IMG/VR virus record: IMGVR_UViG_3300011114_000654 | Location: 1-59,001 of that record | Strand: one strand, 5' to 3' | Source of the DNA: a virus | DNA length: 59,001 nt | Translations under genes and position numbers: made by a program | Part shown: positions 115 to 57,886 of the stretch, one piece after another | Layout of the letters: the number at the start of each line of letters is the position of its first letter | How positions within the stretch are numbered: the stretch's first letter is position 1 | Notes under the pieces: generated by a model | Told to the model about the DNA's origin: nothing | Databases searched by the model: none | Seen by the model: the letters and a program-made list of their open reading frames with translations, nothing else

Positions 115-159
115 TGTGAGATATTCCACACACTTACATACCGGATAGTGTAGTAGAAT
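115..159 (+). promoter_or_regulatory. Early promoter with CRP-like palindrome (copy A)
   Basis: TGTGA-GATATT-CCACA (115-130) is one mismatch from the CRP/FNR-family consensus TGTGA-N6-TCACA. Its centre (122.5) lies 31.5 bp before a -10 box TAGAAT (154-159), which places it near -42 to -43 of the inferred start at about 166. No good -35 is visible, as expected for a class II activated promoter. The SD cassette GAAAGG begins immediately after the inferred start. Copies B and C have the same geometry. Confidence 0.6.
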
Positions 160-185
160 AGTATTGTATGAAAGGTAGGGTAGTT

Positions 186-788
186 ATGGATTGTAATATT
201 GGAATGTCCAAAATGATGGATGTGTTATCTAAGCTCGGTTATTCTGTACCAGCTTTCAAAATGGTAGATAATACCGTTTACGTATCTAGATTAGTAGATG
301 GTATTGAATACCCTACGCCTACGCTGGTAAACGATACTCTGATGGATGGATTTATGCGTGGTGAAATCCAGGATAACTCACATAGCGTTTCATACGATTT
401 GGGAGGTACGAATCTCAGCGTAGAATTTGCAACGATATGTGGATTCAAAGGTAAACCTATAGAATGGCAAATTACCATCGTTTGCAATGTGGAATGGATG
501 CCTAAACCTACGCAAATTGTACCGTTTGATAGGTTTGCGATATGTCAAGCTTATTTCTGGTACCTCACACACTATTACGATGGTATGTGGAGTAATGAAT
601 ACAAACGGCTATGCAAAATGCAGACATACTACAAACCTGCAGCATCTGAACGGATGCCAAATTCACCAGAATCTGCAACGATATACAATCAGCTGGAAAT
701 CCGTAATGGATACAAACCTACTGGATGGATGGTGCTGTCAGACGATGATAGCTGTGACGATATCGTGATTTGGGATGATGCAGATTAG
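186..788 (+). CDS. Hypothetical early protein, 200 aa
   Basis: I do not recognise this protein. An in-frame ATG exists at 168, but it lies before the SD sequence (AAAGGTAGGGTAG). The ATG at 186 sits at the position the same leader gives in the neighbouring genes, so I chose it. The product has no membrane segment and ends in a very acidic tail (DDDSCDDIVIWDDAD). It is the first gene after the circular junction and after promoter copy A. A role in early host takeover is possible from position only. Confidence 0.75.
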   Translation: MDCNIGMSKMMDVLSKLGYSVPAFKMVDNTVYVSRLVDGIEYPTPTLVNDTLMDGFMRGEIQDNSHSVSYDLGGTNLSVEFATICGFKGKPIEWQITIVCNVEWMPKPTQIVPFDRFAICQAYFWYLTHYYDGMWSNEYKRLCKMQTYYKPAASERMPNSPESATIYNQLEIRNGYKPTGWMVLSDDDSCDDIVIWDDAD

Positions 789-833
789 TGTGGAATATCT
801 CACACTATACAATACCGGATTGTGTAGTAAACT
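789..833 (+). promoter_or_regulatory. Early promoter with CRP-like palindrome (copy B)
   Basis: TGTGG-AATATC-TCACA (789-804) differs from TGTGA-N6-TCACA at one base. Its centre is 31.5 bp upstream of the -10 box TAAACT (828-833), exactly as in copies A and C. The inferred start (about 840) directly precedes GAAAGGTAGGGTAG. An alternative -10, TACAAT at 808-813, would instead put the palindrome over the spacer and suggest repression. Confidence 0.6.
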
Positions 834-857
834 AGTATTGAAAGGTAGGGTAGTTAG

Positions 858-1127
858 ATGATTCACGTATCGGGTTTGTTATTCATCCAGCACAATGACA
901 ATTTTGGGATTGTGTACGATACTGTACGCAAAATGGCAGTATCTCAGATTCCATTTCAGACATACGATGAATGCCAGCGTAGGATTCACACGTGTGGAAT
1001 ATCGGTAGATGAATACCATCACAAAGTAATATGCAAAGCTTTCACCGACAATCGTTATTTGAATATTATGGAAATGAAAGCTCTTAAAACCTTTATATCG
1101 ATGGTACGTAATACGTCAGATAAATAA
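858..1127 (+). CDS. Hypothetical early protein, 89 aa
   Basis: Small protein of unknown function. It follows promoter copy B with an inferred 5' leader of about 18 nt that consists almost only of the SD cassette GAAAGGTAGGGTAGTTAG. No membrane segment or metal-binding motif is visible. The gene is probably the only one read from promoter B before the hairpin at 1136-1166, though read-through to the following genes is likely because they have no promoter of their own. Confidence 0.75.
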   Translation: MIHVSGLLFIQHNDNFGIVYDTVRKMAVSQIPFQTYDECQRRIHTCGISVDEYHHKVICKAFTDNRYLNIMEMKALKTFISMVRNTSDK

Positions 1128-1135
1128 TTGGTGCT

Positions 1136-1166
1136 GTAGGGTATCTGCTAAGTGTGGATACCCTAC
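1136..1166 (+). promoter_or_regulatory. Perfect 10-bp hairpin upstream of an SD cassette
   Basis: GTAGGGTATC (1136-1145) pairs perfectly with GATACCCTAC (1157-1166) across an 11-nt loop. It stands 5 nt before GAAAGGTAGGTAGG of the next gene. There is no U-run, so it is unlikely to be a simple terminator. An mRNA processing or stabilising hairpin, or an insulator of the ribosome site, fits better. Similar hairpins occur at 4098, 57524, 58034 and 58633. Confidence 0.7.
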
Positions 1167-1186
1167 CAGATGAAAGGTAGGTAGGT

Positions 1187-1486
1187 ATGGATTACACAAT
1201 GCACACATCTACGAAATGCTGGATAACAATTCCAGGCATTCTATTAGATGCAGATATGAATATAGATGCGCTTTATGAAATGCTACGTGGTAGCGAAGAA
1301 ATACCAGATATCACACTGGTGATTACATCATCTGATAATGTACCAGAAACAATGACATTCAAAGGTGCTGCAGGATTAATCGGATGTTACGAATTCATAA
1401 AGTCTAATATGCACCATCAGCTCAGACTAAAGGTACAGGAAATAACACACATCAAAGCTTTGCTGGAATACACAAAGGAAAGGTAG
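1187..1486 (+). CDS. Hypothetical early protein, 99 aa
   Basis: Unknown small soluble protein, with no recognised motif or membrane segment. The start is set by the strong cassette GAAAGGTAGGTAGGTATG that follows the hairpin at 1136-1166. The next gene begins 6 nt after the stop, and its SD is formed by the last codons of this one (GGAAAGGTAGGTAG). The two are therefore almost certainly co-translated in one operon. Confidence 0.75.
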   Translation: MDYTMHTSTKCWITIPGILLDADMNIDALYEMLRGSEEIPDITLVITSSDNVPETMTFKGAAGLIGCYEFIKSNMHHQLRLKVQEITHIKALLEYTKER

Positions 1487-1492
1487 GTAGGT

Positions 1493-1801
1493 ATGAGATT
1501 AGATATCCACGTGGCATCGTCTGCATCTGATTACGCTTCGAATCGTGGCGTACGCATATTCAGCGAATATAAGAGCTTGACTGAATTTGAATCAGCGAAT
1601 AACGAGATGCCATTCTATTCTAGATTAGCAAATGACGGAAATCATATCGTAGTAATTCAGCGTGACGGATGGAATGCTAGTGTATTAGGTAGGTTTGATG
1701 TCAAGCGTATGCGTACCCGTAATTACCTAAAGCTTTACCCTATCAAAGGTGACGCATACGCTCACGTGAAGGTCACCAGCATACGTATTCAGGAAAGGTA
1801 G
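1493..1801 (+). CDS. Hypothetical early protein, 102 aa
   Basis: Unknown basic-looking small protein with several Arg/Lys clusters in the C-terminal third (DVKRMRTRNYLKLY). It starts 6 nt after the preceding stop with SD GGAAAGGTAGGTAGG. Its own 3' end (CAGGAAAGGTAGGTAG) supplies the SD of the next gene. This coding-embedded ribosome site is shared along the operon. No function can be assigned. Confidence 0.75.
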   Translation: MRLDIHVASSASDYASNRGVRIFSEYKSLTEFESANNEMPFYSRLANDGNHIVVIQRDGWNASVLGRFDVKRMRTRNYLKLYPIKGDAYAHVKVTSIRIQER

Positions 1802-1808
1802 GTAGATT

Positions 1809-2099
1809 ATGGTAATAGGCAATTTGACGCGCAGGGAACGAGTATTTGACATACTCGCAGACATCAGGGATTTACATACAATCCAGGATAAAGATAAACG
1901 TATTCAACAGCTGGAATCTATCGCTGAAAGTATCGGTGAGCTTAGAGAAAAACGTGCATACGAAGCGTGTAGGGTACGGAATCTAGCTGAGGTATGGCGT
2001 AACGATTATAAAGCTGGAGTAGGCTATACCATCGCGGAAGATATCGATAATCTGTATTACTTTATGGAACAATCGTTATTGAGTAAAACAATCAGGTAG
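1809..2099 (+). CDS. Hypothetical early protein, 96 aa, coiled-coil-like
   Basis: Unknown protein rich in Lys/Glu/Arg, with a stretch around residues 20-60 (KDKRIQQLESIAESIGELREKR) whose heptad-like spacing suggests a helical or coiled-coil segment. The ATG at 1809 follows GGAAAGGTAGGTAGATT. It lies in the same tightly packed early operon and its 3' end again carries a GGTAGTAGGTAG ribosome site for the next gene. Confidence 0.72.
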   Translation: MVIGNLTRRERVFDILADIRDLHTIQDKDKRIQQLESIAESIGELREKRAYEACRVRNLAEVWRNDYKAGVGYTIAEDIDNLYYFMEQSLLSKTIR

Positions 2100-2108
2100 T
2101 AGGTAGAT

Positions 2109-2354
2109 ATGACACACAATACAGATGAACAAATCCTAAACGATACTAAACAGGAAGCTATACGCCAAGTCAAAATATCGTTTGCGGATAGGTATAGGGT
2201 GGAATACGTCACGTCAAAATGGGGAGTTAACAGCTACACAAGTATTACCCTAGCGGATGCCATCAATTACATCAATAAAGCAAAGCTAGTAAAGGTAGAT
2301 AGCGGAGACATCTATTTGGATAATGCATCCATCATGTCACGAGATGTATCCTGA
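2109..2354 (+). CDS. Hypothetical early protein, 81 aa
   Basis: Unknown small protein; no motif recognised. The start at 2109 follows CAGGTAGTAGGTAGAT. It is the last gene before promoter copy C, whose palindrome begins at the base after its stop codon. The operon starting at promoter B therefore ends here or is reinforced by promoter C. Confidence 0.72.
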   Translation: MTHNTDEQILNDTKQEAIRQVKISFADRYRVEYVTSKWGVNSYTSITLADAINYINKAKLVKVDSGDIYLDNASIMSRDVS

Positions 2355-2399
2355 TGTGCAATATCTCACACATCACATTACTGTATTGTGTAGTAGACT
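2355..2399 (+). promoter_or_regulatory. Early promoter with CRP-like palindrome (copy C)
   Basis: TGTGC-AATATC-TCACA (2355-2370) is centred 31.5 bp upstream of the -10 box TAGACT (2394-2399), the same distance as in copies A and B. The inferred start, about 2406, falls at the G of GAAAGGTAGGTAGG. The sequence GTGTAGTAGACTAG around the -10 closely matches the other two copies, which supports a shared promoter class. Confidence 0.6.
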
Positions 2400-2420: not shown

Positions 2421-2714
2421 ATGTCAGATTATAACGGCTGGAAGAATTACGAAACGTGGAATGTAAACCTTTGGTTTGGTGACGATATGACAGGGATGGC
2501 AGCAGATAACGGTAAAGCTATCGATGCAGACTGGTGTAGGGAAATCGTCGAAGAATACCTACAGAATTCCGTAGGTAATGTATTCCAGGGTTTCATCGGT
2601 GACATAGTCCAATCATTCTTAGGTAGCGTAGATTGGCGTGAAATCGCAAAGCACGTAAACGATGATGCGGAATTGTCCGACGATACAGACGATACAGACG
2701 AAGAAAGCGAATAG
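2421..2714 (+). CDS. DUF7249-like small phage protein, 97 aa
   Basis: The N-terminus (NGWKNYETWNVNLWFGDD) matches a motif I recall from small phage proteins annotated as DUF7249 and similar; their function is unknown. The C-terminus is strongly acidic (DDTDDTDEESE). The gene follows promoter copy C with the SD cassette GAAAGGTAGGTAGG, and the next gene starts 3 nt after its stop. An acidic DNA-mimic-like tail is visible but no activity is inferred. Confidence 0.75.
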   Translation: MSDYNGWKNYETWNVNLWFGDDMTGMAADNGKAIDADWCREIVEEYLQNSVGNVFQGFIGDIVQSFLGSVDWREIAKHVNDDAELSDDTDDTDEESE

Positions 2715-11200: not shown

Positions 11201-12573
11201 CAGAAGTTGAGAAGCGTGTATCAGAGCTTTCATCACGCAAGAAAGATGGGTACTACCCATTCGACCCTATGGTGGAGATGTCCCTTCTTGGGACTATCCT
11301 CCTTGGGGGCAAGAAGGTTCTTGATGATGTAGAGCATATCGTCAACGAGCAGATGTTCTATCGTCCTGGCAACCAAGCTGTTTATTCGTCTATGAAGAGA
11401 GTTGTCGCTCAGACTCAAGGTAGTTGCGATATCGTCCTGCTGAATGATGACCTTACTAATCACAACCAGATAGACCTCATAGGTGGGCTAGCGTACCTAA
11501 TGCAGTTGGGTGATATGGAGTTCACTACATCAACGGCTGTAACGTACGCCAATAAGGTCAAGAGATACCACGAGCTTAGGAACATAGTAGTCAACTCTGA
11601 GTACGCTATGCTCAGGGCGCAACAAGGTGAGATTGACCCTGAGGTAATCACCCTAGACTTCGCTAAAGGAACTGAGATAAAGAATGCAACCAACGTAGTA
11701 TCAAGCGCAGGTGATGTACTACGTGAAAGTATCTTAGGTATCCTAAACGGTCGTAAGAAAGGGATTCCAACAGGCTTTGCTGATATCGATAAGGTAATCA
11801 ACGGATTCAAGGAAGGTGAACTAATCATCCTTGGTGGCAGACCATCTATGGGTAAGTCATCACTTGGACTACAGTATGCAATCAACGCATCAAGGCAATG
11901 CAAGGCGAATGGTGGTGGAGGCGCACTCTTCATTAGCGTAGAGATGTCACAAGACATGATTAGCCAGAGGCTCCTACAGATAATAGGAAACGTAGACGGT
12001 CAAGCACTTCACAATAGCTACTTCTCTAAGGGCGAGCGTGACTCTATGGAGGCTACACAACGTGAGGTGGACACATTACCCCTTTACTTCTCAACAGAGA
12101 CTCCTGTGACCATTCAGAGCATCAGGGCTAAGGCTCGTGATATGCAGCGTAAAGGCACACTATCTATGCTAGTGGTTGACTACCTTCAGATGCTTGATAC
12201 AGGGAAGGAGACGCAGGGTAGGACACGTGATATTGGAGTACTGAGCAGAGGGTTGAAGTCAATAGCCAAAGAGTTTAGTATCCCAGTCGTAGCTTTATCG
12301 TCACTCTCACGTGCAAGTGAACAGCGCAATGACAAGCGACCAATCATGTCAGACCTACGAGAGTCTGGAGATATTGAGTCAGATGCTGACGTGGTACAAT
12401 TTCTGTATAGACCAGACTATTACGCTGAAGATAGGAATGCTTGGGATGAAGATATGCCTTCCGAGACAGAAGTGATAACAGCGAAAAACCGCAATGGGTC
12501 TATTGGAGTATCACGAATCGAGTTCCACAAACGTGTAGCACGTTTCGCTAATATCCCAGAAGGAAGCCTCTAA
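11197..12573 (+). CDS. dnaB: Replicative DNA helicase, DnaB family, 458 aa
   Basis: Unwinds DNA at the replication fork as a hexamer. The N-terminal domain (residues 20-120, PFDPMVEMSLLGTILL) is followed by the RecA-like motor: Walker A GGRPSMGKSSL (about 215-225), LFISVEMSQDMISQRLL, Walker B-type LVVDYLQML, and LSRASEQRNDKRPIMSDLRESGDIESDAD. Length and motif order match full-length DnaB. It overlaps its upstream neighbour by 4 nt and the next gene by TAATG. Confidence 0.95.
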   Translation: MTEVEKRVSELSSRKKDGYYPFDPMVEMSLLGTILLGGKKVLDDVEHIVNEQMFYRPGNQAVYSSMKRVVAQTQGSCDIVLLNDDLTNHNQIDLIGGLAYLMQLGDMEFTTSTAVTYANKVKRYHELRNIVVNSEYAMLRAQQGEIDPEVITLDFAKGTEIKNATNVVSSAGDVLRESILGILNGRKKGIPTGFADIDKVINGFKEGELIILGGRPSMGKSSLGLQYAINASRQCKANGGGGALFISVEMSQDMISQRLLQIIGNVDGQALHNSYFSKGERDSMEATQREVDTLPLYFSTETPVTIQSIRAKARDMQRKGTLSMLVVDYLQMLDTGKETQGRTRDIGVLSRGLKSIAKEFSIPVVALSSLSRASEQRNDKRPIMSDLRESGDIESDADVVQFLYRPDYYAEDRNAWDEDMPSETEVITAKNRNGSIGVSRIEFHKRVARFANIPEGSL

Positions 12574-12803
12574 TGGATGTATCAATCCGAACCGGATACA
12601 AGCGTGTGTCGAACTGGCAACGACACGTGATTATGACTGTAGCAGACTCTAAGACCAGGGCAGAAGCAGCTGAGAGACTAGGGCTAAAGATACGTACACT
12701 TGATGACCTTTTGTATCGTGCATACAAGACGATGGGTTGTCGCAATATCAAGGAAGCAGAAGTCATCCTAGGTAGCAAGGGATTCACAACAAGGAGCGAG
12801 TAA
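12573..12803 (+). CDS. LuxR/GerE-type HTH protein, 76 aa
   Basis: The whole protein is one DNA-binding domain: SNWQRHVIMTVADSKTRAEAAERLGLKIRTLDDLLYRAYKTMG resembles the C-terminal HTH of LuxR-type regulators (A..LGlk..Tl...l.rA..KmG). There is no receiver or ligand domain. It could regulate phage or host promoters and is one of two such proteins in the genome (the other at 50153). The start overlaps the helicase stop (TAATG). Confidence 0.65.
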   Translation: MDVSIRTGYKRVSNWQRHVIMTVADSKTRAEAAERLGLKIRTLDDLLYRAYKTMGCRNIKEAEVILGSKGFTTRSE

Positions 12804-14268: not shown

Positions 14269-15045
14269 TTATCTTTTCAGGATGATAGACGTATCATCAA
14301 TAGCAACTGTCAATCCCTGCCAATTAGCAAAGTCACGTACAGACACCATAGACTTACCGCCAAGTATGATTGGTGAACAAGGGATAGCCTTATCATCCCA
14401 CAATGGAACTAAGTCAAAGGCTAGTCTAGTCTTGACGTCTTCACCATACAACGCCTCAAGCATAGGACGTAGCGCAGCATAAGCTTTACCGTTAGTCAAT
14501 ATAGACTTGATGGAGTCAGAACCTATGACTACATTACGCTCAGATGAAACATCATCAAGCAGGTCAGCCCATCTAGCAAACACAAGACGCCCTAGGTTAC
14601 GCCCTGTATATAGGTTAGGACGCTCTACAACAGACGTACCATTCCTTGAACCATCAAGGTTACTGTTACCCTCAATGGATGTGAATGAGTTGTCCTTATA
14701 GCCAGATACAAGGAATACGTGAACAGCATCATCGCTATCTTCCGCAGCCAATACAAACCCAACATCACCTACATATGGTGTCTTATGTAAGATGCCTAAC
14801 TTCTTTGCGCGAGCAAGCAATACATCACAGCTGGCTGAACGACCTAGTTGCCAATCAAGCTTAGTCTTGAACTTCCACCTTGCGTGTACAGCACTGAGAA
14901 ACGAAGCACACCAGAAACTACCTAGAGGGACATTACAGGCTGTATTCCATACGTCGATATGGAAACCTCTATTGCTACCCATAGGCTCTTCTTTAGTACC
15001 AACAAAGCCTCTTGCTACCGATATGAACTCTTGTACTGGACTCAT
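14269..15045 (-). CDS. Endolysin, CHAP-like peptidoglycan hydrolase, 258 aa
   Basis: Cleaves the host cell wall at lysis. The N-terminal 140 residues show the CHAP-like cysteine hydrolase family: GTKEEPMGSNRGFHIDVWN, GSFWCASFLSAV (catalytic Cys), DAVHVFLVSG (catalytic His) and SIEGNSNLDGSRNGTSVVER. The C-terminal part (residues 165-258, with AYAALRPMLEAL) resembles copper-amine-oxidase-N-like repeats often used for wall binding. SD AGGAGG lies 7 nt upstream; the start overlaps the stop of the 3010-aa gene (ATGA). Confidence 0.85.
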   Translation of the reverse strand: MSPVQEFISVARGFVGTKEEPMGSNRGFHIDVWNTACNVPLGSFWCASFLSAVHARWKFKTKLDWQLGRSASCDVLLARAKKLGILHKTPYVGDVGFVLAAEDSDDAVHVFLVSGYKDNSFTSIEGNSNLDGSRNGTSVVERPNLYTGRNLGRLVFARWADLLDDVSSERNVVIGSDSIKSILTNGKAYAALRPMLEALYGEDVKTRLAFDLVPLWDDKAIPCSPIILGGKSMVSVRDFANWQGLTVAIDDTSIILKR

Positions 15046-18000
15046 TCAAGAACCTCCTCCTCAACTTGCTCCATCTGGTCTGGTCGTAATTCAGACTCAG
15101 GATTAATCAACCACTCTTCTTTATCTGAACCAAGTAGGTAATACTGCCACCCTGGAGGATTGCCGTATGTATCGTAGTCGTATTCACCCTTACCGGCTGG
15201 TGGGTTATATCTAAGCCGTCCACCTAATATGTTGACTGCACCAACAAAGGCTGCCTCAAAGTTCTTGTCCTCTTCTTCTCTATCATTAGCCGCCTTATAC
15301 GTTTCAAGGTACGACTGCATCCAAAGGAACATAAGATTCTTGGTAACCAACTTGCTGAGATTCATCTCAGGTGCATCAATACCAATCTCTTTCAACATAG
15401 GCTTAGTTACGTTGTCATACCAAGTCTTCAGGTCTTCATCAACATAACCAACAGGCTTGCCCATAAAGTCACGACCAGTGAACATCTCTTTCAATATACT
15501 GATAGCAGGAGCGTTTACTAATCGTCCCTCAACGACAGCACCCATCATACTAGCAAACTTCTCACGTGCCTCTTTAGGTGAATCCTTTGGTGACATCTTC
15601 AAAGCGTTAGCGAATGCATCACCAAACTCAAGGAACATCATGCTTCCACCGGGAGCTTTGAATACATAGTTGCCAACCTGTATCTTTGTACCGGCAGCAG
15701 CAATAGATGTCTTTACCTTGAACTGGTCGAATGGACGATACAAACCAAAGTATGCAAGTAGCGCAAACCACAATGCACGTGCCTTCAATAGCATCTTCCA
15801 GTTAGCCCTGAATGCATACGGGTTCAGACTACGTGTTGATGGAATACCATTCAACTCCATCCACTTTTTACCAACATCAGTTTGTCCTAAGAAATATCGT
15901 CCTATTGGGTCAGCCATTACACGACTTGCAAGCCAGCGTGGTGCAAACATGACACGACGCATCATGCGACCAATAGCCTTGTCGTATTCCTGTGCGCTAA
16001 ACTTGATGTCACCATTCATGACATTCAATACGGCTGCCATATCAGATGCCGCTTCTTTGAACCCAGCAGATGATGTGTCGTAACCTAACTCTTCATAAGT
16101 AGCCATCGCCTGTGCAAACTTATTGAATTTGACGTAGTCCTTCATCATCGTCATAGCACGTTCAGATGATGCTTTGAGAGGTACGTATCGCTCACCAGAC
16201 AGAACACCTTGAATATCTGGGTCAACATCCAACTCATCAACATCCATCAAGTCAATCTCAGGAAGAGTTGCGTCTGGATTTGTCTTCCGTAGTTCAGCTA
16301 ACTTCTCTTCCCTCTTCGCCCTTAGGTCATCTAGGATTCTGTCATATTGTGATGTAGCCAGAGTAAGCCTACTCTGCTTGGCTAGTTCGTAATATTTATT
16401 TGAGCGAATCTCATTACCCATAATGTGGACTTGCTCACGACCCTTGAACATCTTCTTGTTGATAGTTCCAACGCCGTTATCAAAACCTAGGTTAGGTGCA
16501 AGAGACTTTGGTCCAAGTAACAACGACTTGAAGAACAAGTCAGGTGACTCAATAGGGTTAGCAAGCATCCAGTTCTGGATAAGAGGTGCAGACCAGTCTC
16601 CAGCCATTGGGAAGCGACCTAGTGCGTTGATTGCATCAAAGACTTGCATGAACCGACTCTCGTCAATCTTCTGCACAACCTTGATGAATGTACTGTATTC
16701 CTTAGGGTCATCAAAGGTAGTCTCAACACCATCCTCATCAGCAAAGGTTATTGGATTCTCAGGTGTTGGGATATCTGAGTCATCAATATCTTTGATAGCA
16801 GCATCACTTATAGGACGAAGACTATAGAGAGGAGTACCTCTACCGGTTACATTCTGTACACGTCCCATCGGGTTGTTGACCTGATTAGGTGGCAAGTCAC
16901 CAAACGGAGACTCAGTTGTTTCGTAGGTCTTATCGATACGATTGTCTAGTGCAACAATACCTGTCTTGATATCCTCAATAGGTGCAAGTGCAGCCTTGTG
17001 GACATCGACACCACCAAGTGACTTGTAGTTAGACCGACCAAAGGTTTCTGTATACAACGCACGAATAGCATTTACGTCTTTAGTAATAGCAGAGTGTGCT
17101 GCAAATGCCGCAAAGGCTGAATGCTCACCACCACTTGAAACCTCAACTGAATCAAGGATAGTTGAATGGATTGAGTCCAACAAGTCTATGTAACGTAGTG
17201 GTATTCCGTTCACATCCTTATGCTTACTCTTAGCCATAAGTGGATGTCCGTCGGTGAGCGGTTTACCCTTTAACTTATACTTTGACTTTGGGGCAGAATC
17301 TCTCTTTGCTCTAATCTCTAATAGTGCTTGATAAACCTCGCCATAAGGCTCATATTTATCTTTGGACTCAGTTAAATTAAGTCTTTCAATTAGTTCAATA
17401 GCACCATCCAAACCTCTGTCTTGAACAATATCTTTCAAGTGAAATGACATCGGACCATTATGGATAGCAATAATCTGTTCAGGCTTTACATCAGATAACT
17501 GCTGTTGGTTATACTTAATCTTTGAAGGGTCTTCCCAGAACTCAACCAAAGGCTTAAGGTTCATATCTTCATATGCCTTGAGTGAAGACTCGTTAGACCA
17601 AACAAAGTTTGGCTCTCCGTATGTTTCACCCTTAGCACTAGAAAGACGAATGCCATTCTCAGCAATAGAATCCAGGGCTTCCTTTGACTTAGTGTAATGA
17701 ACACGTCGAACCATACCCGGTGGTATTGGCTCACTAAGGAAGTGCTTCCCATACTTATGCAAAGCAGTCAAGCGAGAGTCATCAACAGACGCTGTCATCT
17801 TTAGATAAGTGAACTGTCTGTCAAGCTCAGACATCAAAGAGTCATAAGCCATCTTTGTCTCAGGGTTAGTATCGTACGAGTTAGCAGGTAGCTTGTCGTA
17901 GTTACTTGCAATACCCAATCGACGCTCTTGGTTGTCCTGAGCGTATGTCCAGTCACCGGGTAACTTTATGTCACGTTCCGCAACCGTTGACAGCGAAGAC

Positions 18001-21000
18001 TCTATAACATCTCTTAGCCTTTGGTCGGTAATAGACTGATGTCCGGCTTCATAGATTTCCGGCTTGATGAGGTGAAGTACATTTCTCGCTTCATAGAAGG
18101 GGATGGCATAACCTTGCGCCGCTTCGTTTCCGAAATGCCAGACTCTTTCAGTATCTTGGATAGCCTGAACTGGAATGCGTCTCTTAGAGAGTTCGCCGGT
18201 AATGTTGCCGACGGCTTTCTCAAAATCGTTGAGGGATTCTTCATATGTCTTACCTCTCTGCTCCACGTTGTGTAGCGTTACAGACTGTCCATCAATACTC
18301 TTACGGAGATATGGATACATACGCTTCATAGAAGCATATACGTTGTCTGTTACTGGACCATCAAACTCAAAGGTGACTGATGGCTCTACTGAATAACCAC
18401 GCTTCTGGTTGTAGCCTATCTCTTCACCAGGGTTTGCCTTTGTGACGAGTAATGCCTCTGAGATGTTGTTACGGATAGCAAAGTCAATAGCCTTACCGAT
18501 GGTGTCAACCCCAGCATCGTTGATGCCAATTGTTCCATCGATGACTAATACGTCATTTATCTCCATCAACTTGATGTTGCTGTTACCTAAGTCTGAGCGT
18601 AGGACATCAGAGTCAACTCGCTGTTGAACAATAGGGGTAACAGACTCACGTGGCACACCACTTCTTGTTGAAGACTCAGCGAAGTCTACAGGTGTACGTG
18701 AATCAGGATTGATAGTGGAACTTTGACCGTTGGCTAACGCTCTGTCCGCTTTGTCTGCAAAAGGATTTTTCCGACTGGAGTACAGGACATTACCGCCGGT
18801 GTTACCTGCGTCATCGTTATAAGACGCCCGTTTATTACGGCTTTGTGCCTCCAGCGCAGCTGCAAATGGTGCTGCGTCCGCAATATTGGCTTGCAGTTCT
18901 GGTAGTGACCGTCGCATCCACTTTTCTGCTGTGAGCTTGCGATTGCCTTGCTTTGTGAATGTGTCACGAGTTCTACCTTCTCCCGCTTTCATTGTACCAA
19001 TTACGTTGAGCCAGTTTTGTAGACTCAGTGAATCATCACCGTTAGTGGAGACATCAGATAGCAATCCATACTCGTTAGCCTGATTGACGATAGCTAAGAG
19101 ATTATTAGGGACAATGCCCTCAAGCATACCTGCAGCACGTTCAACATCCTCAGGCTTATTACTTGCAGCCTTGATTGAGTATTCCTTTAGGACGTCATTA
19201 CTGAATGCCGTAATACGCCCAGTCATACCAGCGTAAGAGTTATCTTCAAGAGCTTTGCTTACAGCGTTATACGGATTATCAAGACCAATGACCTGAATAT
19301 TACGTGGACCAGATGAACCAGATACAAAGTTCAACAACATCTTGCCAAACTCTGGAGCCATACCAATATCATCAGATAGAGCAATCACATCTCGTGGAGT
19401 GACCTCAGTCTGCGTTGATGTTCCATCCTCAGCGTATAACTCAACAGCAACAATAGGCTTATCAAGATTGCGCTTGGAAACGAGTAGTGGTCCAAAAGGA
19501 TACTTCTTAGTAGAAAGAATCTTTCCACGAACAGGTACACCATTTACATCAATAATGACAGGTGCGTTATCCCACAAAGAGATGCGCTGCCAATCATATG
19601 GAACAGCCCACTGAACCTCATACTTACCATTCTCAAGAGGCGTCACAACAGCCGAGGACATCTCTGAATATGCAGAACGCATAAACGTACGCAAGTTATC
19701 CCAAAGCTCTGTCATACGAGCCTTGGCTTCAGCACTACCCTGCTTTTGAATGAAAGCATTCTCACCATTCAGGAATGATGCCTTCATACGTGCTGCAAAC
19801 ATCTCTTGCATTTCATATGAGGCTATGCTCTGGTTTGTAGTCGTAGGCTCACGTAGAGTTTTACCAAGTTTGGTTGCTACCTCACGTGCCATATCAACAG
19901 GCATATTCTCAAGAATGGCGTGTGACAGTTCTTCTATGATGGTGTTAGGGTCAGCCTGATTCATAGTGATAAACACTACTTGTTGACCTACATCATTATT
20001 CTTGTCACGAATATTGACATACGCACCTTCACCTACAAAGACTTCATCAAACGCAGATGAGATATTAGGTGCCTTAGAAAGTACAGCGAATACAGGTGTA
20101 TTCGTCTGATATCTCTCTCGGATAAGTTTCGACTGTACCTTACGTACAACTTCACGCTTTTGGTCAATCGATAATGCGTCACCAAAGTACATGACACGCT
20201 CATCACGTGAGTACGTACCATCAGGGTTGAGTACTAACGCTCTCTTTGATGCTTCCTCATTCAACATAGTAATAATGTTGGTGACACGAGGAACCTCAAA
20301 CTTCTGATAAAGGCGAGCAATCCTATTCCTTACAAGCTTTTGCTTTGTAGCCTGTTTAGTGTCGGTGTCAAGAATAGGGACTTCATCAATACTGTACTTA
20401 GTGAGGCTGCCACTAGTAACTGTAGACGAAAACTCACGCACACCTTGAGCGTACTGTTGTGCAATCAAAAGGTCTCTGTTTACAAATGCACGAATCCACT
20501 CGTCGTAATACTTTGATACAGAGTCTGCATATCTATCAACCTCTGATGCTGGCATCTTGACGTTAGCGTCTTTGATTACTTGCTTGAGAATATCCTTGAG
20601 TTCGGTGACATTACGTGCCTTGCGGAACACATCATTAATGTCTCCAAGCCCTTCAATAGATGCGGTAATGCGTACAAGAGAATCGTCATCAAGCATCTCA
20701 ACATCACCTGGCATAGTGACGTCAAGTGCGCTACCTTCTTCGGCTGGGAGAATATCTGCTTCACCTAACAATTCACCTTCAGTGATAATAGATGGCTTAG
20801 GCTCTTCAACTACAACAGGTTCAACAGGGGCTGGAGTAGGCTCAGGAGTAACAATAGGAATGTCTACTTCGGCAGCACGTTCCTCTGCTTTACGCAAACG
20901 AGCTTCACCAAGCGTCTCTTCCTCAATAGGGTTAATCACTGGTGTAGCACGACGGCGAGTCCTACGACGAGGTGTAGGCGCAGGAGCCTCTGTAGGCGTC

Positions 21001-24000
21001 ACTGGAGGCGTTACTTCAGCAGTTGGCTCAGTTACCTTAGTACGCTTTGTAGGAGTACGTTCTCGTGGCTCAGGTGTAACCTCTGTTTCTTTAGGTGCTG
21101 GTGTAGGTTTAGTCTTAGCAGTAGGTGTTGCTGGCTCAGGACGTGGAGCCTCAGCACTCTTTGTGCGACGTGCCTTCTCAGGAGTTGGCTTTGCAGTCGT
21201 ACCACCATAAGCACGTGTGATAGCAGATTGTTGAACTGTAAACGCAGGAGCCATAGGATTGCTAACACTAACAACCGTTGGACCAAACTGCGTATTACCT
21301 ACAACGACACCATTATCGACGTCACCAGAAGGAGTTCTAAACTCAACAATAGAACCTACTTCATAGTCTGCATCACTCTTTGAGAATGACTTTGAAAATT
21401 CTTTACGTGTATTCTTACTTGCAGCGGACAATCTAGTCTGCGCTGTTCCACCCGGAACACCTTCAGAACGCATCTTATTACGATAACCATTTAGGTTATC
21501 TTTGCGTGTCTTAGCATCTGCAACTTGCTCAGGTGTAAGAAGGACTGGATGGTCTTGACCCGTAAAACGCTCTCTATCAGATGCCTTGAAGATAGGGTCA
21601 TACTTACTTCTATCAACTCTAAACTGCGATGGGTCAACAGCCATAGAAGATGTGTCTAGTATTTCACCCTCAAACTTCGTAGCGACAGAATCTCGTGATA
21701 ATCCCTCAACAGTATCGTTAGGGACAACCATCATGTCGAAGCCACCAACAGGTGATGGAACCTGCACAACAGAATAATTCTTGTCGATAGCCTTGACTAC
21801 ACGCCCGTAAAGAGGTGTGCCAACTACATCAATACGCCGATTGAAGTCAGTATCAGATGGACCTTCACCATCCTTTGAAGGAACGTAATCAGCTGCTCTA
21901 CTAAGGTCATACTCATAGTTCTTGAGTTGATAGCCAGTCCTATCACTTGGTGTAATACCACCAGCCTTGAATGCTTCAGCCGCTAGTTTCTGGTTATCAC
22001 CAAACAACATATCCGTACTGACCAAGTCAAGTCGTGACTCACCAGTCTTCTTATCCGTTGTCTTAACTGTTGCAAGACCATCATGCGTTAGACCAAGGAA
22101 CGATTGCGCTTCATCACCACGAGTCTGGACTTTACCAAACGTGCTTGCAGCCTTAGCGTACGTTCCAGCAATACTGAATCCCTTCTTAGGAGCCAGTGAA
22201 CTTACTGCATTCAGTAAGCTCTGACCAACCATAGGGTTGTCAGCACCAACTCTATCTGATTCAACTACAGGTGCATTACTGATAGTCGCAGACATATTCT
22301 CTGGGTTGATATTGACTACACGACCACCACCAATAGGGACTACGTTTTCACCTAGTGGATTCCTTGGTGTAGCAGTCGCTGTACGTGCCTCAGCAAATGT
22401 AGGAGTAATACCACCAGCAGAAGGAGTAGGTGTTGGAGTTACACCCGGTGTTACACCAGCACTAGGTGTACGAGCAAACGGTGATGGTGCAACAATTGGT
22501 TGATAGGCTTCAGGAGTATACGTATCGAAACGCGCATCCAGCCCACGAGTAATAGCCATACCAGCACGTTGTCCTGGTGCATTCAGGAATCTACCAAGCT
22601 TATGTTGTCCTTCAAACAATCCACCAAGAGCGGTCTTACCTAGAATCATCCATAGTGGGTCACGCTCTGCTTCAGGTTTTTGGTTGTTCTCTTGAAGTGC
22701 CATTGCAAGGTCAGAACTGGCTTCAACACCACGCTCTGCAACATCACTAAGGAACTCACGTCCCGGTGCAGATGCCGCAAAGCCACGACCAAACGTAGCA
22801 GCAGTACCAACACCCGGTATACGTTCTAACTGTTGACCAGCCGTTCTAGCACCCTGCATAAATGGAGTAGATGCTAACTTACCAGCAAGTCCTTGAGTAG
22901 GAACAGCCGCTGTCGCAAGTGCTTCCCTGCCAGCAGTACCTAGTTTAGTTGCAGCAAGTCCTGACTTTAGACCACCACCAAAACCTGTAGGTAGGGTTGG
23001 TCTACCCATCAAAAAGTTGGTAGCGAGTTGTCCTGCATAAGTGAACTCAGGGGAAAGTTCTCTACCCTCTTGCATATACTCAGCACGAGCTTGACTAAGT
23101 GGACTACGCTGAATGTCAAGCCCAAGACCAGTCTTTGATGGAGAATATGAAGACCCCATCGCAAGTTCGCCAAGTACGTTCTGAGCCTGTTGCGTTGCAG
23201 TAGATGCAGCAAGACCTGTACCAAAACCAACAGCAGCACCAGCTAATGGTCCACCAGCAAAAGTCGTAGGAATTGCAGCAAGACTACCAGTAATGCCACC
23301 AACAACAGTAGGTAATGCGCCTTCAGCAAAAGTAGAACCACCTATTTCAGATACTTCTGCACCATACTGAAATGGCTTTGATGGACTAAGTTCAGGCTTT
23401 GAATATAGAGTATCAGCAGTAAATTGGTCTACAGCCCTACCAGCCTCAGGGCTAAACGCAGATGCAATACGTCCAGCGGTAGACAATACAGGTGTGGCAA
23501 CTGCCTTAGATACACCAGAGAGGACACCAAAAGGCATACCAGCAAGCATAGCCGGTACAGTCTGAGGTCTATCGAATGCTGTAAGACCCCTTTCCTTCTC
23601 AAGTTTAGTTGCTGCTGCTTTACCTCTGGCTGCAATATCACCTGTCTTCTGACGTTGGTCATACATCGTCTGAGCAGGTTCACCCAACTCAAGAGTAAAA
23701 CCAGTATAGGTAGGTGCGTCTACATCAGCACCTTCTATCTGCCCACCAGTACGACGCAGTAGGTCAAGTGGTGTGATAGGCGTAGTCTTAGTCTGGGTAA
23801 CAAACCCTTGAGGTGTAGGGACTTGAACATCTACAGACTTGGTAAGTTTATTACCTTGAGAGTCCATTAACTGGACACCACGCAATACCTTTAGACGCTT
23901 ATCACCTACACCAAGATAGTTGTTATATTCTGATTGAGAGAGCCAATTCTTACGAAGACCCAGTGAAAGACTATTCTTGTATGTACCAAGAAGGCTAGAG

Positions 24001-24074
24001 TCTAAGAATGTACGGTCATCGTCAGCAAGAGTCTGTACAAGCCGACGGAATCTTTGCCTTTGGTCTTCAGCCAT
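15042..24074 (-). CDS. Giant internal virion / polyvalent protein, 3010 aa
   Basis: Very large multidomain protein, probably packaged and ejected with the DNA. Visible parts: a glycine/alanine-rich hydrophobic stretch near residues 255-290; Pro/Thr/Arg-rich linkers around 960-1100; IIEELSHAILE near 1380, similar to a metalloprotease helix but lacking the first His of HExxH; VRRVHYTKSKEALDSIAENGI near 2120, like an ADP-ribosyltransferase start; and a C-terminal region with FAPRWLASRVMADPIG near 2710, reminiscent of polyvalent-protein-associated domains (LPD38-like). It sits between the internal virion genes and the endolysin. Exact functions are unknown. Confidence 0.8.
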   Translation of the reverse strand: MAEDQRQRFRRLVQTLADDDRTFLDSSLLGTYKNSLSLGLRKNWLSQSEYNNYLGVGDKRLKVLRGVQLMDSQGNKLTKSVDVQVPTPQGFVTQTKTTPITPLDLLRRTGGQIEGADVDAPTYTGFTLELGEPAQTMYDQRQKTGDIAARGKAAATKLEKERGLTAFDRPQTVPAMLAGMPFGVLSGVSKAVATPVLSTAGRIASAFSPEAGRAVDQFTADTLYSKPELSPSKPFQYGAEVSEIGGSTFAEGALPTVVGGITGSLAAIPTTFAGGPLAGAAVGFGTGLAASTATQQAQNVLGELAMGSSYSPSKTGLGLDIQRSPLSQARAEYMQEGRELSPEFTYAGQLATNFLMGRPTLPTGFGGGLKSGLAATKLGTAGREALATAAVPTQGLAGKLASTPFMQGARTAGQQLERIPGVGTAATFGRGFAASAPGREFLSDVAERGVEASSDLAMALQENNQKPEAERDPLWMILGKTALGGLFEGQHKLGRFLNAPGQRAGMAITRGLDARFDTYTPEAYQPIVAPSPFARTPSAGVTPGVTPTPTPSAGGITPTFAEARTATATPRNPLGENVVPIGGGRVVNINPENMSATISNAPVVESDRVGADNPMVGQSLLNAVSSLAPKKGFSIAGTYAKAASTFGKVQTRGDEAQSFLGLTHDGLATVKTTDKKTGESRLDLVSTDMLFGDNQKLAAEAFKAGGITPSDRTGYQLKNYEYDLSRAADYVPSKDGEGPSDTDFNRRIDVVGTPLYGRVVKAIDKNYSVVQVPSPVGGFDMMVVPNDTVEGLSRDSVATKFEGEILDTSSMAVDPSQFRVDRSKYDPIFKASDRERFTGQDHPVLLTPEQVADAKTRKDNLNGYRNKMRSEGVPGGTAQTRLSAASKNTRKEFSKSFSKSDADYEVGSIVEFRTPSGDVDNGVVVGNTQFGPTVVSVSNPMAPAFTVQQSAITRAYGGTTAKPTPEKARRTKSAEAPRPEPATPTAKTKPTPAPKETEVTPEPRERTPTKRTKVTEPTAEVTPPVTPTEAPAPTPRRRTRRRATPVINPIEEETLGEARLRKAEERAAEVDIPIVTPEPTPAPVEPVVVEEPKPSIITEGELLGEADILPAEEGSALDVTMPGDVEMLDDDSLVRITASIEGLGDINDVFRKARNVTELKDILKQVIKDANVKMPASEVDRYADSVSKYYDEWIRAFVNRDLLIAQQYAQGVREFSSTVTSGSLTKYSIDEVPILDTDTKQATKQKLVRNRIARLYQKFEVPRVTNIITMLNEEASKRALVLNPDGTYSRDERVMYFGDALSIDQKREVVRKVQSKLIRERYQTNTPVFAVLSKAPNISSAFDEVFVGEGAYVNIRDKNNDVGQQVVFITMNQADPNTIIEELSHAILENMPVDMAREVATKLGKTLREPTTTNQSIASYEMQEMFAARMKASFLNGENAFIQKQGSAEAKARMTELWDNLRTFMRSAYSEMSSAVVTPLENGKYEVQWAVPYDWQRISLWDNAPVIIDVNGVPVRGKILSTKKYPFGPLLVSKRNLDKPIVAVELYAEDGTSTQTEVTPRDVIALSDDIGMAPEFGKMLLNFVSGSSGPRNIQVIGLDNPYNAVSKALEDNSYAGMTGRITAFSNDVLKEYSIKAASNKPEDVERAAGMLEGIVPNNLLAIVNQANEYGLLSDVSTNGDDSLSLQNWLNVIGTMKAGEGRTRDTFTKQGNRKLTAEKWMRRSLPELQANIADAAPFAAALEAQSRNKRASYNDDAGNTGGNVLYSSRKNPFADKADRALANGQSSTINPDSRTPVDFAESSTRSGVPRESVTPIVQQRVDSDVLRSDLGNSNIKLMEINDVLVIDGTIGINDAGVDTIGKAIDFAIRNNISEALLVTKANPGEEIGYNQKRGYSVEPSVTFEFDGPVTDNVYASMKRMYPYLRKSIDGQSVTLHNVEQRGKTYEESLNDFEKAVGNITGELSKRRIPVQAIQDTERVWHFGNEAAQGYAIPFYEARNVLHLIKPEIYEAGHQSITDQRLRDVIESSLSTVAERDIKLPGDWTYAQDNQERRLGIASNYDKLPANSYDTNPETKMAYDSLMSELDRQFTYLKMTASVDDSRLTALHKYGKHFLSEPIPPGMVRRVHYTKSKEALDSIAENGIRLSSAKGETYGEPNFVWSNESSLKAYEDMNLKPLVEFWEDPSKIKYNQQQLSDVKPEQIIAIHNGPMSFHLKDIVQDRGLDGAIELIERLNLTESKDKYEPYGEVYQALLEIRAKRDSAPKSKYKLKGKPLTDGHPLMAKSKHKDVNGIPLRYIDLLDSIHSTILDSVEVSSGGEHSAFAAFAAHSAITKDVNAIRALYTETFGRSNYKSLGGVDVHKAALAPIEDIKTGIVALDNRIDKTYETTESPFGDLPPNQVNNPMGRVQNVTGRGTPLYSLRPISDAAIKDIDDSDIPTPENPITFADEDGVETTFDDPKEYSTFIKVVQKIDESRFMQVFDAINALGRFPMAGDWSAPLIQNWMLANPIESPDLFFKSLLLGPKSLAPNLGFDNGVGTINKKMFKGREQVHIMGNEIRSNKYYELAKQSRLTLATSQYDRILDDLRAKREEKLAELRKTNPDATLPEIDLMDVDELDVDPDIQGVLSGERYVPLKASSERAMTMMKDYVKFNKFAQAMATYEELGYDTSSAGFKEAASDMAAVLNVMNGDIKFSAQEYDKAIGRMMRRVMFAPRWLASRVMADPIGRYFLGQTDVGKKWMELNGIPSTRSLNPYAFRANWKMLLKARALWFALLAYFGLYRPFDQFKVKTSIAAAGTKIQVGNYVFKAPGGSMMFLEFGDAFANALKMSPKDSPKEAREKFASMMGAVVEGRLVNAPAISILKEMFTGRDFMGKPVGYVDEDLKTWYDNVTKPMLKEIGIDAPEMNLSKLVTKNLMFLWMQSYLETYKAANDREEEDKNFEAAFVGAVNILGGRLRYNPPAGKGEYDYDTYGNPPGWQYYLLGSDKEEWLINPESELRPDQMEQVEEEVLE

Positions 24075-49800: not shown

Positions 49801-50160
49801 ATGGCACAAAAATTAATCACTTCAACTGATGACCCTTTGTACATCAATGCAATCGTACACCTAGCCAACCTTCTCGATGAACGTACATTTGGGACACCTA
49901 TGGGTGTATCCCCTAAATGGAAAGAGAAGTTTATGGGAAAGCAATATTGTGAAGATGGATGCATTAATGGACGTTGTCCTGGTCATACACTCATCTGCAA
50001 TCTAGGGACAATCGTAAAGCATCCAACATACTCATTCTTTGTATTTCATAGGGAAGATTACTCAAACGGTAAAAATCAAAGCGTGATTTACTTCTATGAA
50101 GATGAGGCAAAGGCTGAAACGCAGTTCAACACACTAAAGAGGAGAGCAAGGGATGTATGA
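49801..50160 (+). CDS. Hypothetical Cys-cluster protein, 119 aa (leaderless)
   Basis: Unknown. Residues 49-68 carry four cysteines and a His (CEDGCINGRCPGHTLIC), likely a small zinc-binding knuckle; the C-terminus is charged and helical. TAAACT lies 6 nt before the ATG and there is no SD, indicating leaderless translation. It overlaps the downstream LuxR-type gene by 8 nt, so the pair may be a regulator and cofactor. Confidence 0.65.
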   Translation: MAQKLITSTDDPLYINAIVHLANLLDERTFGTPMGVSPKWKEKFMGKQYCEDGCINGRCPGHTLICNLGTIVKHPTYSFFVFHREDYSNGKNQSVIYFYEDEAKAETQFNTLKRRARDV

Positions 50161-50386
50161 CAACCTAACGCCTAAAGAGCATACGATTTTGAATCTTATG
50201 GCAATAGAGCGCATGACCGTAAATGAAATAGGTGAGAAACTACTCATCTCTAAACGGACTGTCCATTATCATCTTCAGAACATCTACAAGAAACAGGGCT
50301 ATGAACCTAATGCTAGGTCTCAGATGAAGCTTGCCCTTGAATATGCAGATTATGTATCAAAGCAACTTGCCAACAAAGAAGACTAA
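50153..50386 (+). CDS. LuxR/GerE-type HTH regulator, 77 aa
   Basis: LTPKEHTILNLMAIERMTVNEIGEKLLISKRTVHYHLQNIYKKQGYEPNARSQMKLAL (quoted in parts: LTPKEHTIL, ISKRTVHYHLQNIYKKQG, ARSQMKLAL) is the full GerE helix-turn-helix. No receiver or sensory domain is present. Standing alone between structural clusters on the opposite strand, it could act as a phage transcription regulator. Followed by a terminator-like hairpin. Confidence 0.82.
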   Translation: MYDNLTPKEHTILNLMAIERMTVNEIGEKLLISKRTVHYHLQNIYKKQGYEPNARSQMKLALEYADYVSKQLANKED

Positions 50387-56616: not shown

Positions 56617-57182
56617 CAGCGTCACAATCTATCCACCAACTGGATAATATCTATCCATTAGCACGAAGTGCGTGGGCGTACTGCATACCTATCTGAATAG
56701 CATAGCCTTGATACGCACACCATACGCAGCCTTACAATACACGCTACTACAGCACTACCTATCAATCTTCTACCTACGTATATATTGAATCTAACAGTAT
56801 TTGTACACCTTACAATTAGAGTAGATGGATAGGAAAGATTCTTTCTAGTTGTTACACTTAGCAAGTATGTAGTAGTAGGAGTTAGTTTCTACGATGGGAG
56901 AAAGGTAGATGTGGATAGGATAGGGATGTAAATGTCGGAGTCCCCCCCTACCACACTGCGCACTGGGGTGGGAGCTTGCCTTACCCCCTCCCCCTAGTCA
57001 GCAGATTGGAAAAAAGGGAGTCCTCATTTTCTACCTAGTCCGCAGATTGGACATACCAGCTGGTGGATTCCGCTGCGGGTGGTAAACAATAATTTCAAGC
57101 TTAGTGTATGCAACAATTGTGTATAGAATGGAACGCGCGCGCGTGATAGCACGATCGATTCCATTTGTCAAGCTTTTACCAG
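56617..57182. other. Long non-coding region with repeats and G/C runs
   Basis: About 570 bp without a credible gene. It contains a 19-base copy of GGATAGGAAAGATTCTTTC (56827-56845) shared with the origin-like region, a run of seven C (56942-56948), G/C-rich pyrimidine blocks (56980-56994), two direct copies of CCTAGTC(A/C)GCAGATTGGA 41 bp apart (56993-57010 and 57034-57051), and an alternating CGCGCGCG step with a CGATCG palindrome (57132-57155). A packaging, origin or regulatory function is plausible. Confidence 0.6.
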
Positions 57183-57226
57183 TGTGAAATTGTTCACATT
57201 GTAAATTGTGGTGCATGCTGTACAAT
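57183..57226 (+). promoter_or_regulatory. Early promoter with perfect CRP-like site
   Basis: TGTGA-AATTGT-TCACA (57183-57198) matches the CRP/FNR-family consensus exactly in both half-sites. It abuts a -35 TTGTAA (57199-57204), followed after 16 bp by -10 TACAAT (57221-57226). The palindrome centre lies about 42 bp upstream of the inferred start (about 57233), the class II activator position. Downstream genes run through the circular junction into the early block. Confidence 0.7.
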
Positions 57227-57571: not shown

Positions 57572-57886
57572 ATGAAAGTCATAGAACGTAAAATGTTGCA
57601 AGCTGTAAAGCTTGGAAAGTCTACGGATTTGGGTAATACCCGTATTGTCGCAATTGATAACAGTGTGAAGGTTTACCTATTCAACAATCTAATTGCCACA
57701 CTTGACGGTGATACAGGTACGCTTGACGTTATCACCCGTTATCAGTCGGCTACCACCAAATCACGCCTTAATGCCATCCTGCGCGAATATGCGAATACAT
57801 CAATCCATCAATCGGATTTCGTCTGGTATTACGCGGATAACACGTACACCGGGAACGGCCGTACATTTTGGGGAATTACCAAATGA
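57572..57886 (+). CDS. Hypothetical early protein, 104 aa
   Basis: Unknown protein with TDLGNTRIVAIDNSVKVYLFNNLIATLDG (in part), a beta-rich run typical of small early proteins, and an aromatic-rich C-terminus (FVWYYADNTYTGNGRTFWG). SD GAAAGGTAGG precedes the ATG. The stop overlaps the next start (ATGA). Confidence 0.72.
   Translation: MKVIERKMLQAVKLGKSTDLGNTRIVAIDNSVKVYLFNNLIATLDGDTGTLDVITRYQSATTKSRLNAILREYANTSIHQSDFVWYYADNTYTGNGRTFWGITK

Follow-up and report, generated by a model that had tools for sequence, protein, structure and literature searches.

The early gene region of this freshwater phage raises the question of which protein acts on a palindrome that stands at a fixed distance before several of its promoters, and whether such a protein would come from the host or from the phage itself. 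The window, by which is meant the whole analysed stretch of 59,001 nucleotides, is one closed phage genome with a 25-bp terminal direct repeat shared by its ends. The junction is spanned without break in the relative G001, whose terminase is 98% identical, and the elements across the joined ends lie 272 bp apart in the window and 274 bp apart in G001. Because of the terminal repeat and the crossing of the junction in G001, the map can be read as closed, and a palindrome at 57183-57198 thus precedes the other three sites on the same strand and stands before the same rightward gene block. This block begins near 57.2 kb, crosses the join and extends to 14.2 kb; it encodes small proteins mostly without known function, followed by an ERF recombinase, a replication initiator and a DnaB helicase. 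The leftward block (14.3-49 kb) holds the virion genes, among which is a leftward ORF of 3009 aa (15042-24074) that the relatives keep at 22-90% and that has no Pfam and no credible PHROG match. A Kyano_Gp96 homologue at 57572-57886, with 38-43% identity to Synechococcus/Prochlorococcus T4-like phages, is unexpected next to actinophage-like virion genes. The phage is probably lytic, since no tyrosine or serine recombinase (integrase, resolvase) was found in the phages searched; among cultured phages it has no nucleotide relatives. The features of the early promoters are as follows, each +1 being a prediction.

115-130, plus strand: CRP/GlxR-like palindrome 1, TGTGAGATATTCCACA
139-145, plus strand: spacer element TACCGGA of promoter 1 (-27 to -21), making the dyad TAC-N11-GTA with GTA at 153-155
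154-159, plus strand: -10 element TAGAAT of promoter 1
166: predicted +1 G of promoter 1, with Shine-Dalgarno sequence GAAAGGTAGGG at 170-180 and likely start codon at 186
168-788, plus strand: gene behind promoter 1, listed with 206 aa, probably starting at 186, without a Pfam match
789-804, plus strand: CRP/GlxR-like palindrome 2, TGTGGAATATCTCACA
813-819, plus strand: spacer element TACCGGA of promoter 2
828-833, plus strand: -10 element TAAACT of promoter 2
840: predicted +1 G of promoter 2, also the first base of Shine-Dalgarno sequence GAAAGGTAGG (840-849), with ATG at 858
858-1127, plus strand: first gene of the operon of promoter 2, 89 aa, without a credible Pfam match
2355-2370, plus strand: CRP/GlxR-like palindrome 3, TGTGCAATATCTCACA
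2379-2385, plus strand: spacer element TACTGTA of promoter 3
2394-2399, plus strand: -10 element TAGACT of promoter 3
2406: predicted +1 G of promoter 3, also the first base of Shine-Dalgarno sequence GAAAGGTAGG, with ATG at 2421
2421-2714, plus strand: first gene behind promoter 3, 97 aa, DUF7249
57143-57171, minus strand: leftward promoter TTGACA-N17-TATCAC, divergent from the rightward one across the fourth palindrome
57183-57198, plus strand: fourth CRP-like palindrome, TGTGAAATTGTTCACA, with the complete E. coli CRP core consensus, flanked by divergent promoters
57221-57226, plus strand: rightward -10 TACAAT, 22 bases after the fourth palindrome (centre to box 30.5 bp)

The first-pass annotation had described the first three palindromes, each centred exactly 31.5 bp before a TANNNT box and each with a Shine-Dalgarno cassette right after the presumed start, and this description holds throughout. 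All three lie where it had placed them, an exact 23-base gap leads to TANNNT in 3/3, and GAAAGGTAGG is found at or just 3' of a G situated 7 nt past the -10 (166, 840, 2406). Sites 1 and 2 are exact reverse complements of each other. Several other elements were seen nearby. For example, a GATA-repeat tract (GATAGATAGATA...) occupies 45-120, immediately 5' of palindrome 1, and is kept by G001. Likewise, the leftward TTGACA-N17-TATCAC promoter is followed by a CACGCGCGCGCGTTCC block of alternating CG (57120-57171 in all), which is conserved in G001, G002, and G021. A stem-loop GTAGGGTATC...GATACCCTAC is present at 1136-1168, and L171, G004, and L168 (intergenic) have GCAGGGTAGAAATACCCTGC; the stem-loops between early genes adjoin the Shine-Dalgarno sequence on its 5' side without a T run and may serve to process or stabilise RNA.

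The bare palindrome is not unusual, as TGTGN8CACA occurs 4 times in the window against 2.3 expected. Its spacing to the promoter is another matter: TGTGN8CACA-N23-TANNNT is found 3 times against 0.06 expected, and at least three occurrences were reached in 0/100 shuffles. The TGTGN8CACA sites are intergenic in 4/4 cases, the intergenic share of the window being only 7.5%. The pattern TGTGN7CACA was rejected as having the wrong spacing, with three chance matches only.

When 2.9 million viral contigs were scanned with the whole unit, the matches fell almost only within this phage family, and those in L169, L170, and L172 look like chance. The unit recurs in seven relatives (G001, G002, G003, G004, G021, L168, and L171), where it consists of TGTGNNATATCTCACA, a free -35 hexamer, TACYGKA at -27 to -21, G-TANNNT, 6 nt, and G. 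The distances are constant, with 23 nt between TGTGNNATATCTCACA and TANNNT and 6 nt from there to an invariant G, which often runs directly into the Shine-Dalgarno sequence and is kept even where that sequence lies further downstream. This G was demanded by one unit scan, and the units first read without that filter have it too. The proposal had been staked on the palindromes being present in related phages with the same genes, and there they are indeed kept: the unit stands before the orthologues of 2421-2714 in G002, G003, G021, and L168 (57-66% amino acid identity) and before the orthologue of 858-1127 in G004/L171 (46% identity). No unit lies directly 5' of the 2421-2714 orthologue in G001, G004, and L171, where that gene is located inside an operon.

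Conservation was measured on 15 dereplicated units. The outer palindrome, for which the units had been selected, carries 1.62 bits per base, and the inner eight bases, for which they had not, carry 1.09; the -35 hexamer has 0.51 and the upstream sequence 0.30. The unselected inner bases A-45 and T-44 are present in 15/15. Judged as a 16-bp dyad of the form TGTGA-N6-TCACA or NGTGN8CACN, all units have TGTG (15/15) and ACA (15/15), and A at position 5 occurs in 6/15 and its partner T(12) in 14/15. The frequent absence of the A of TGTGA from one half-site counts against CRP/GlxR-type activation. In a separate count, every TACYGKA in ten records was taken and GTGN8CAC was sought within 80 bp; it was present at 20/28 promoter-like places vs 9/220 others (Fisher p 1.6e-16, uncorrected for relatedness). 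The units may partly be copies of one ancestor, and the counts may thereby be inflated.

The geometry of the unit recalls activation, with some departures from what had been supposed. The first-pass annotation implied a class II position at -41.5, whereas the three sites have their centres at -43.5 from the predicted start, 2 bp further upstream. Across the family the centre is at -43.5 in 14 units and at -42.5 or -41.5 in several (G003, G007, L168), and AATTG-type sites have theirs one and two helical turns higher up, at about -53 and about -64.5, as would be expected if an activator had to contact the polymerase from one face of the helix. The phase to the -10 is thus fixed across the units, with the start site itself a prediction. 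The claim that no -35 box is present is right for the window, where the hexamers have 0-1/6 matches to TTGACA, and wrong for G004, L168, and L171, where TTTACA abuts the palindrome. In these three the palindrome coexists with a good -35, and it is therefore no simple replacement for one. The expectation that palindrome and -35 quality exclude each other was dropped (rho -0.07). A missing -35 says little in any case, since many actinobacterial promoters show no recognisable -35 and in C. glutamicum a weak -35 is the usual state (PMC3917453).

As to the binding protein, the phage pattern GTG-N8-CAC equals the published motif of GlxR, the CRP of corynebacteria, which is NGTGN8CACN (PMC10033298), and sites of CRP-Mt cluster at -60 to -40 (PMC4117774). 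The NtcA motif is GTA-N8-TAC (PMC3898017), and an NtcA-type promoter was rejected, all sites here being GTG-N8-CAC. Neither a CRP-type HTH (PF13545) nor a cNMP-binding domain (PF00027) was found in the phages searched, a HTH_Crp_2 match in G019 being below the cut-off and disregarded, and WhiB was likewise not found in the phages. Two phage HTH genes are present, a LuxR-type gene (50153-50386) and a sigma-r4-like gene (12573-12803), and both occur also in G006/G007/G009, relatives in which no palindrome centred at -43.5 was found. The earlier suggestion of a host or phage activator can accordingly be narrowed. The identity with the GlxR/CRP consensus, the conservation at orthologous genes and the helical-phase spacing support a CRP-family-type operator in a fixed activator position; and a host protein is the better guess, because no CRP-type domain was found in the phages searched and the two HTH genes occur without the palindrome too. 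No paper on a host CRP at phage early promoters was found among the openly accessible papers searched.

Alternatively, a phage-encoded activator could bind the palindrome; it would be a product of the first rightward operon (57.2-59 kb) or would travel in the virion, and sites 1 to 3 would then serve delayed-early or middle promoters. Phage-encoded regulators typically have operators that recur only in the early block, many small early genes have no known function, and the site at 57183 has a somewhat different core (AATTG), so that its promoter could come first. However, no HTH gene was seen whose presence tracks the palindrome, and the motif corresponds to the consensus of a family of cellular proteins, which leaves a phage activator unlikely though by no means negligible.

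A host activator requires a suitable host, and this is probably an actinobacterium, to judge from two kinds of sequence affinity. The portal, endolysin, and capsid proteins are nearest to those of phages of Arthrobacter, Microbacterium, Streptomyces, and Gordonia. In the promoters, TAGACTAG agrees with the TANANTNG portion of the consensus for C. glutamicum (PMC3917453). The phage -10 also partly fits the C. glutamicum extended -10 GNTANANTNG (PMC3917453). Against such a host, thyX and gp96 are closest to those of cyanophages; psbA, a cyanobacterial sign, is not present. The terminase has no relatives in GTDB genomes, and hence no host could be assigned from prophages. ThyX in genomes was tried as a host clue and set aside as uninformative, with only 41-43% matches to Flavobacteriales/Chlorobiaceae.

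A second dyad lies in the spacer of the same promoters. In every unit TAC at -27 to -25 and GTA at -13 to -11 are conserved, forming TAC-N11-GTA, which overlaps the -10; the TAC was selected for in the scan and G-13 was not. Sometimes it takes the form TACC-N9-GGTA or TACCGTACGGTA. In the window it occupies 139-155, 813-829, and 2379-2395, with its centre at -19. G007 has the spacer dyad with TTGACA/TTGCAC and without the palindrome, and in other viral contigs TTG-N5-TACCGKA-N6-GGTANNAT is strongly enriched for TTGAC (11/23 distinct sequences). The dyad with TTGAC -35 boxes also occurs in the apparently unrelated contigs L174, L176, L177, L182, L186, L188, and L201. The dyad may well be the operator of a different regulator, which perhaps shuts the promoters off. 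Activation of the MerR type through it was rejected, the spacer being 17 bp and not 19-20. The 77-aa LuxR/GerE-type HTH protein of 50153-50386, conserved across the wider family, is a candidate for this regulator.

This second dyad bears on whether the palindrome itself is a repressor operator, at which a phage or host dimer beside the -35 would block the polymerase and shut the early genes off. The palindrome abuts the -35 hexamer in every -43.5 case, the good -35s in some relatives would need no activator, and CRP-family proteins are able to repress. But the window promoters are nearly without a -35, and TAC-N11-GTA is better placed for repression than the palindrome. Operators for the lysogeny repressor of a temperate phage were rejected, such a repressor being unlikely where no integrase or resolvase was found. 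Moreover, repression would need neither a constant distance to the -10 in all -43.5 units nor steps of about 10 bp in the exceptions, and these helical-turn steps are the main reason for preferring activation. Repression is therefore held to be improbable.

It would also be very unlikely that the palindromes are chance sequences in a promoter merely copied three times. The sites within one genome do resemble each other, and the bare palindrome is common enough; yet its conservation exceeds that of all other parts of the unit except the -10, TACCG, and +1 positions, and it persists at orthologues with 57-66% identity where the adjacent -35 hexamer has diverged. Least credible of all is that the 60-bp unit, palindrome included, is the recognition sequence of a T7-like or N4 virion-type phage RNA polymerase, as could be imagined from its repetition with fixed geometry and from the unassigned 3009-aa ORF, because the unit has sigma-70 hallmarks (T-12, A-11, T-7, +1 seven nt on, and TTGACA/TTGCAC/TTTACA at 17 bp in relatives) and that ORF lies in the structural block without Pfam or credible PHROG match.

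Hence, host CRP/GlxR-type activation of early phage promoters through a real and conserved promoter module is judged the rather probable explanation. The early promoters of this probably actinobacterial lytic phage would be read by the sigma-70-type RNA polymerase of the host. A host CRP/GlxR-family dimer would dock on TGTGNNATATCTCACA (-51 to -36), immediately adjoining the -35 position, and would recruit the polymerase, in class II fashion, to a TANNNT -10 whose own -35 is poor. The anatomy of the sequence, its spacing and conservation, and the failure to find a CRP-family gene in the phages searched are observations; which protein binds, that it activates and does not repress, where transcription starts, the 'early' timing, and the host are inferred. 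A wider reading, which is possible though doubtful, is that a freshwater actinophage family ties its whole early programme to the cAMP/CRP (GlxR) state of the host, a single CRP dimer site of one geometry at each early promoter, opposed by the dyad over the -10, forming a built-in on/off switch through which the phage would sense the energy status of its host as infection begins. If this were true, the start of infection in such freshwater phages would depend on a global regulator of the host, infection success would follow the carbon/cAMP state of the host, and the NtcA sites proposed for cyanophages would have an actinobacterial counterpart.

Among known systems, class II CRP-dependent promoters of the E. 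coli galP1 type have the activator site adjoining a weak -35 in fixed phase to the -10. The phage units resemble these in their fixed phase and, in the window, in the weak -35 beside the site; most of them are centred at -43.5 instead of -41.5, and some relatives have a near-consensus -35. Phage N4 has three early single-stranded DNA hairpin promoters for its virion RNA polymerase, with the hairpins centred near -11. Three early promoters with inverted repeats are found here too, but with the dyad at -43.5 and a sigma-70-type -10; an N4-type promoter was rejected, as TANNNT occupies -12 to -7 and the dyads are centred at -43.5 and -19. The phage sites are like the operators of GlxR (C. glutamicum) and CRP-Mt (M. 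tuberculosis) in being 16-bp, intergenic GTGN8CAC palindromes with a TA-centred core, 5' of TANNNT/TANANT promoters at -60 to -40. Unlike those operators, they recur before every early promoter with the centre held at -43.5, and they are predicted sites in a phage. A precedent is that of the T4-like cyanophages, in which 1-16 predicted NtcA sites per genome led to the proposal that a host regulator is exploited (Sullivan et al. 2010, PMC3037559). In both cases sites for a CRP-family host regulator are predicted in phage promoters; the cyanophage sites are GTA-N8-TAC before varied genes, whereas those described here are GTG-N8-CAC, confined to the early block and held to one geometry, so that the phage family, the host group, and the uniform geometry are what is new.
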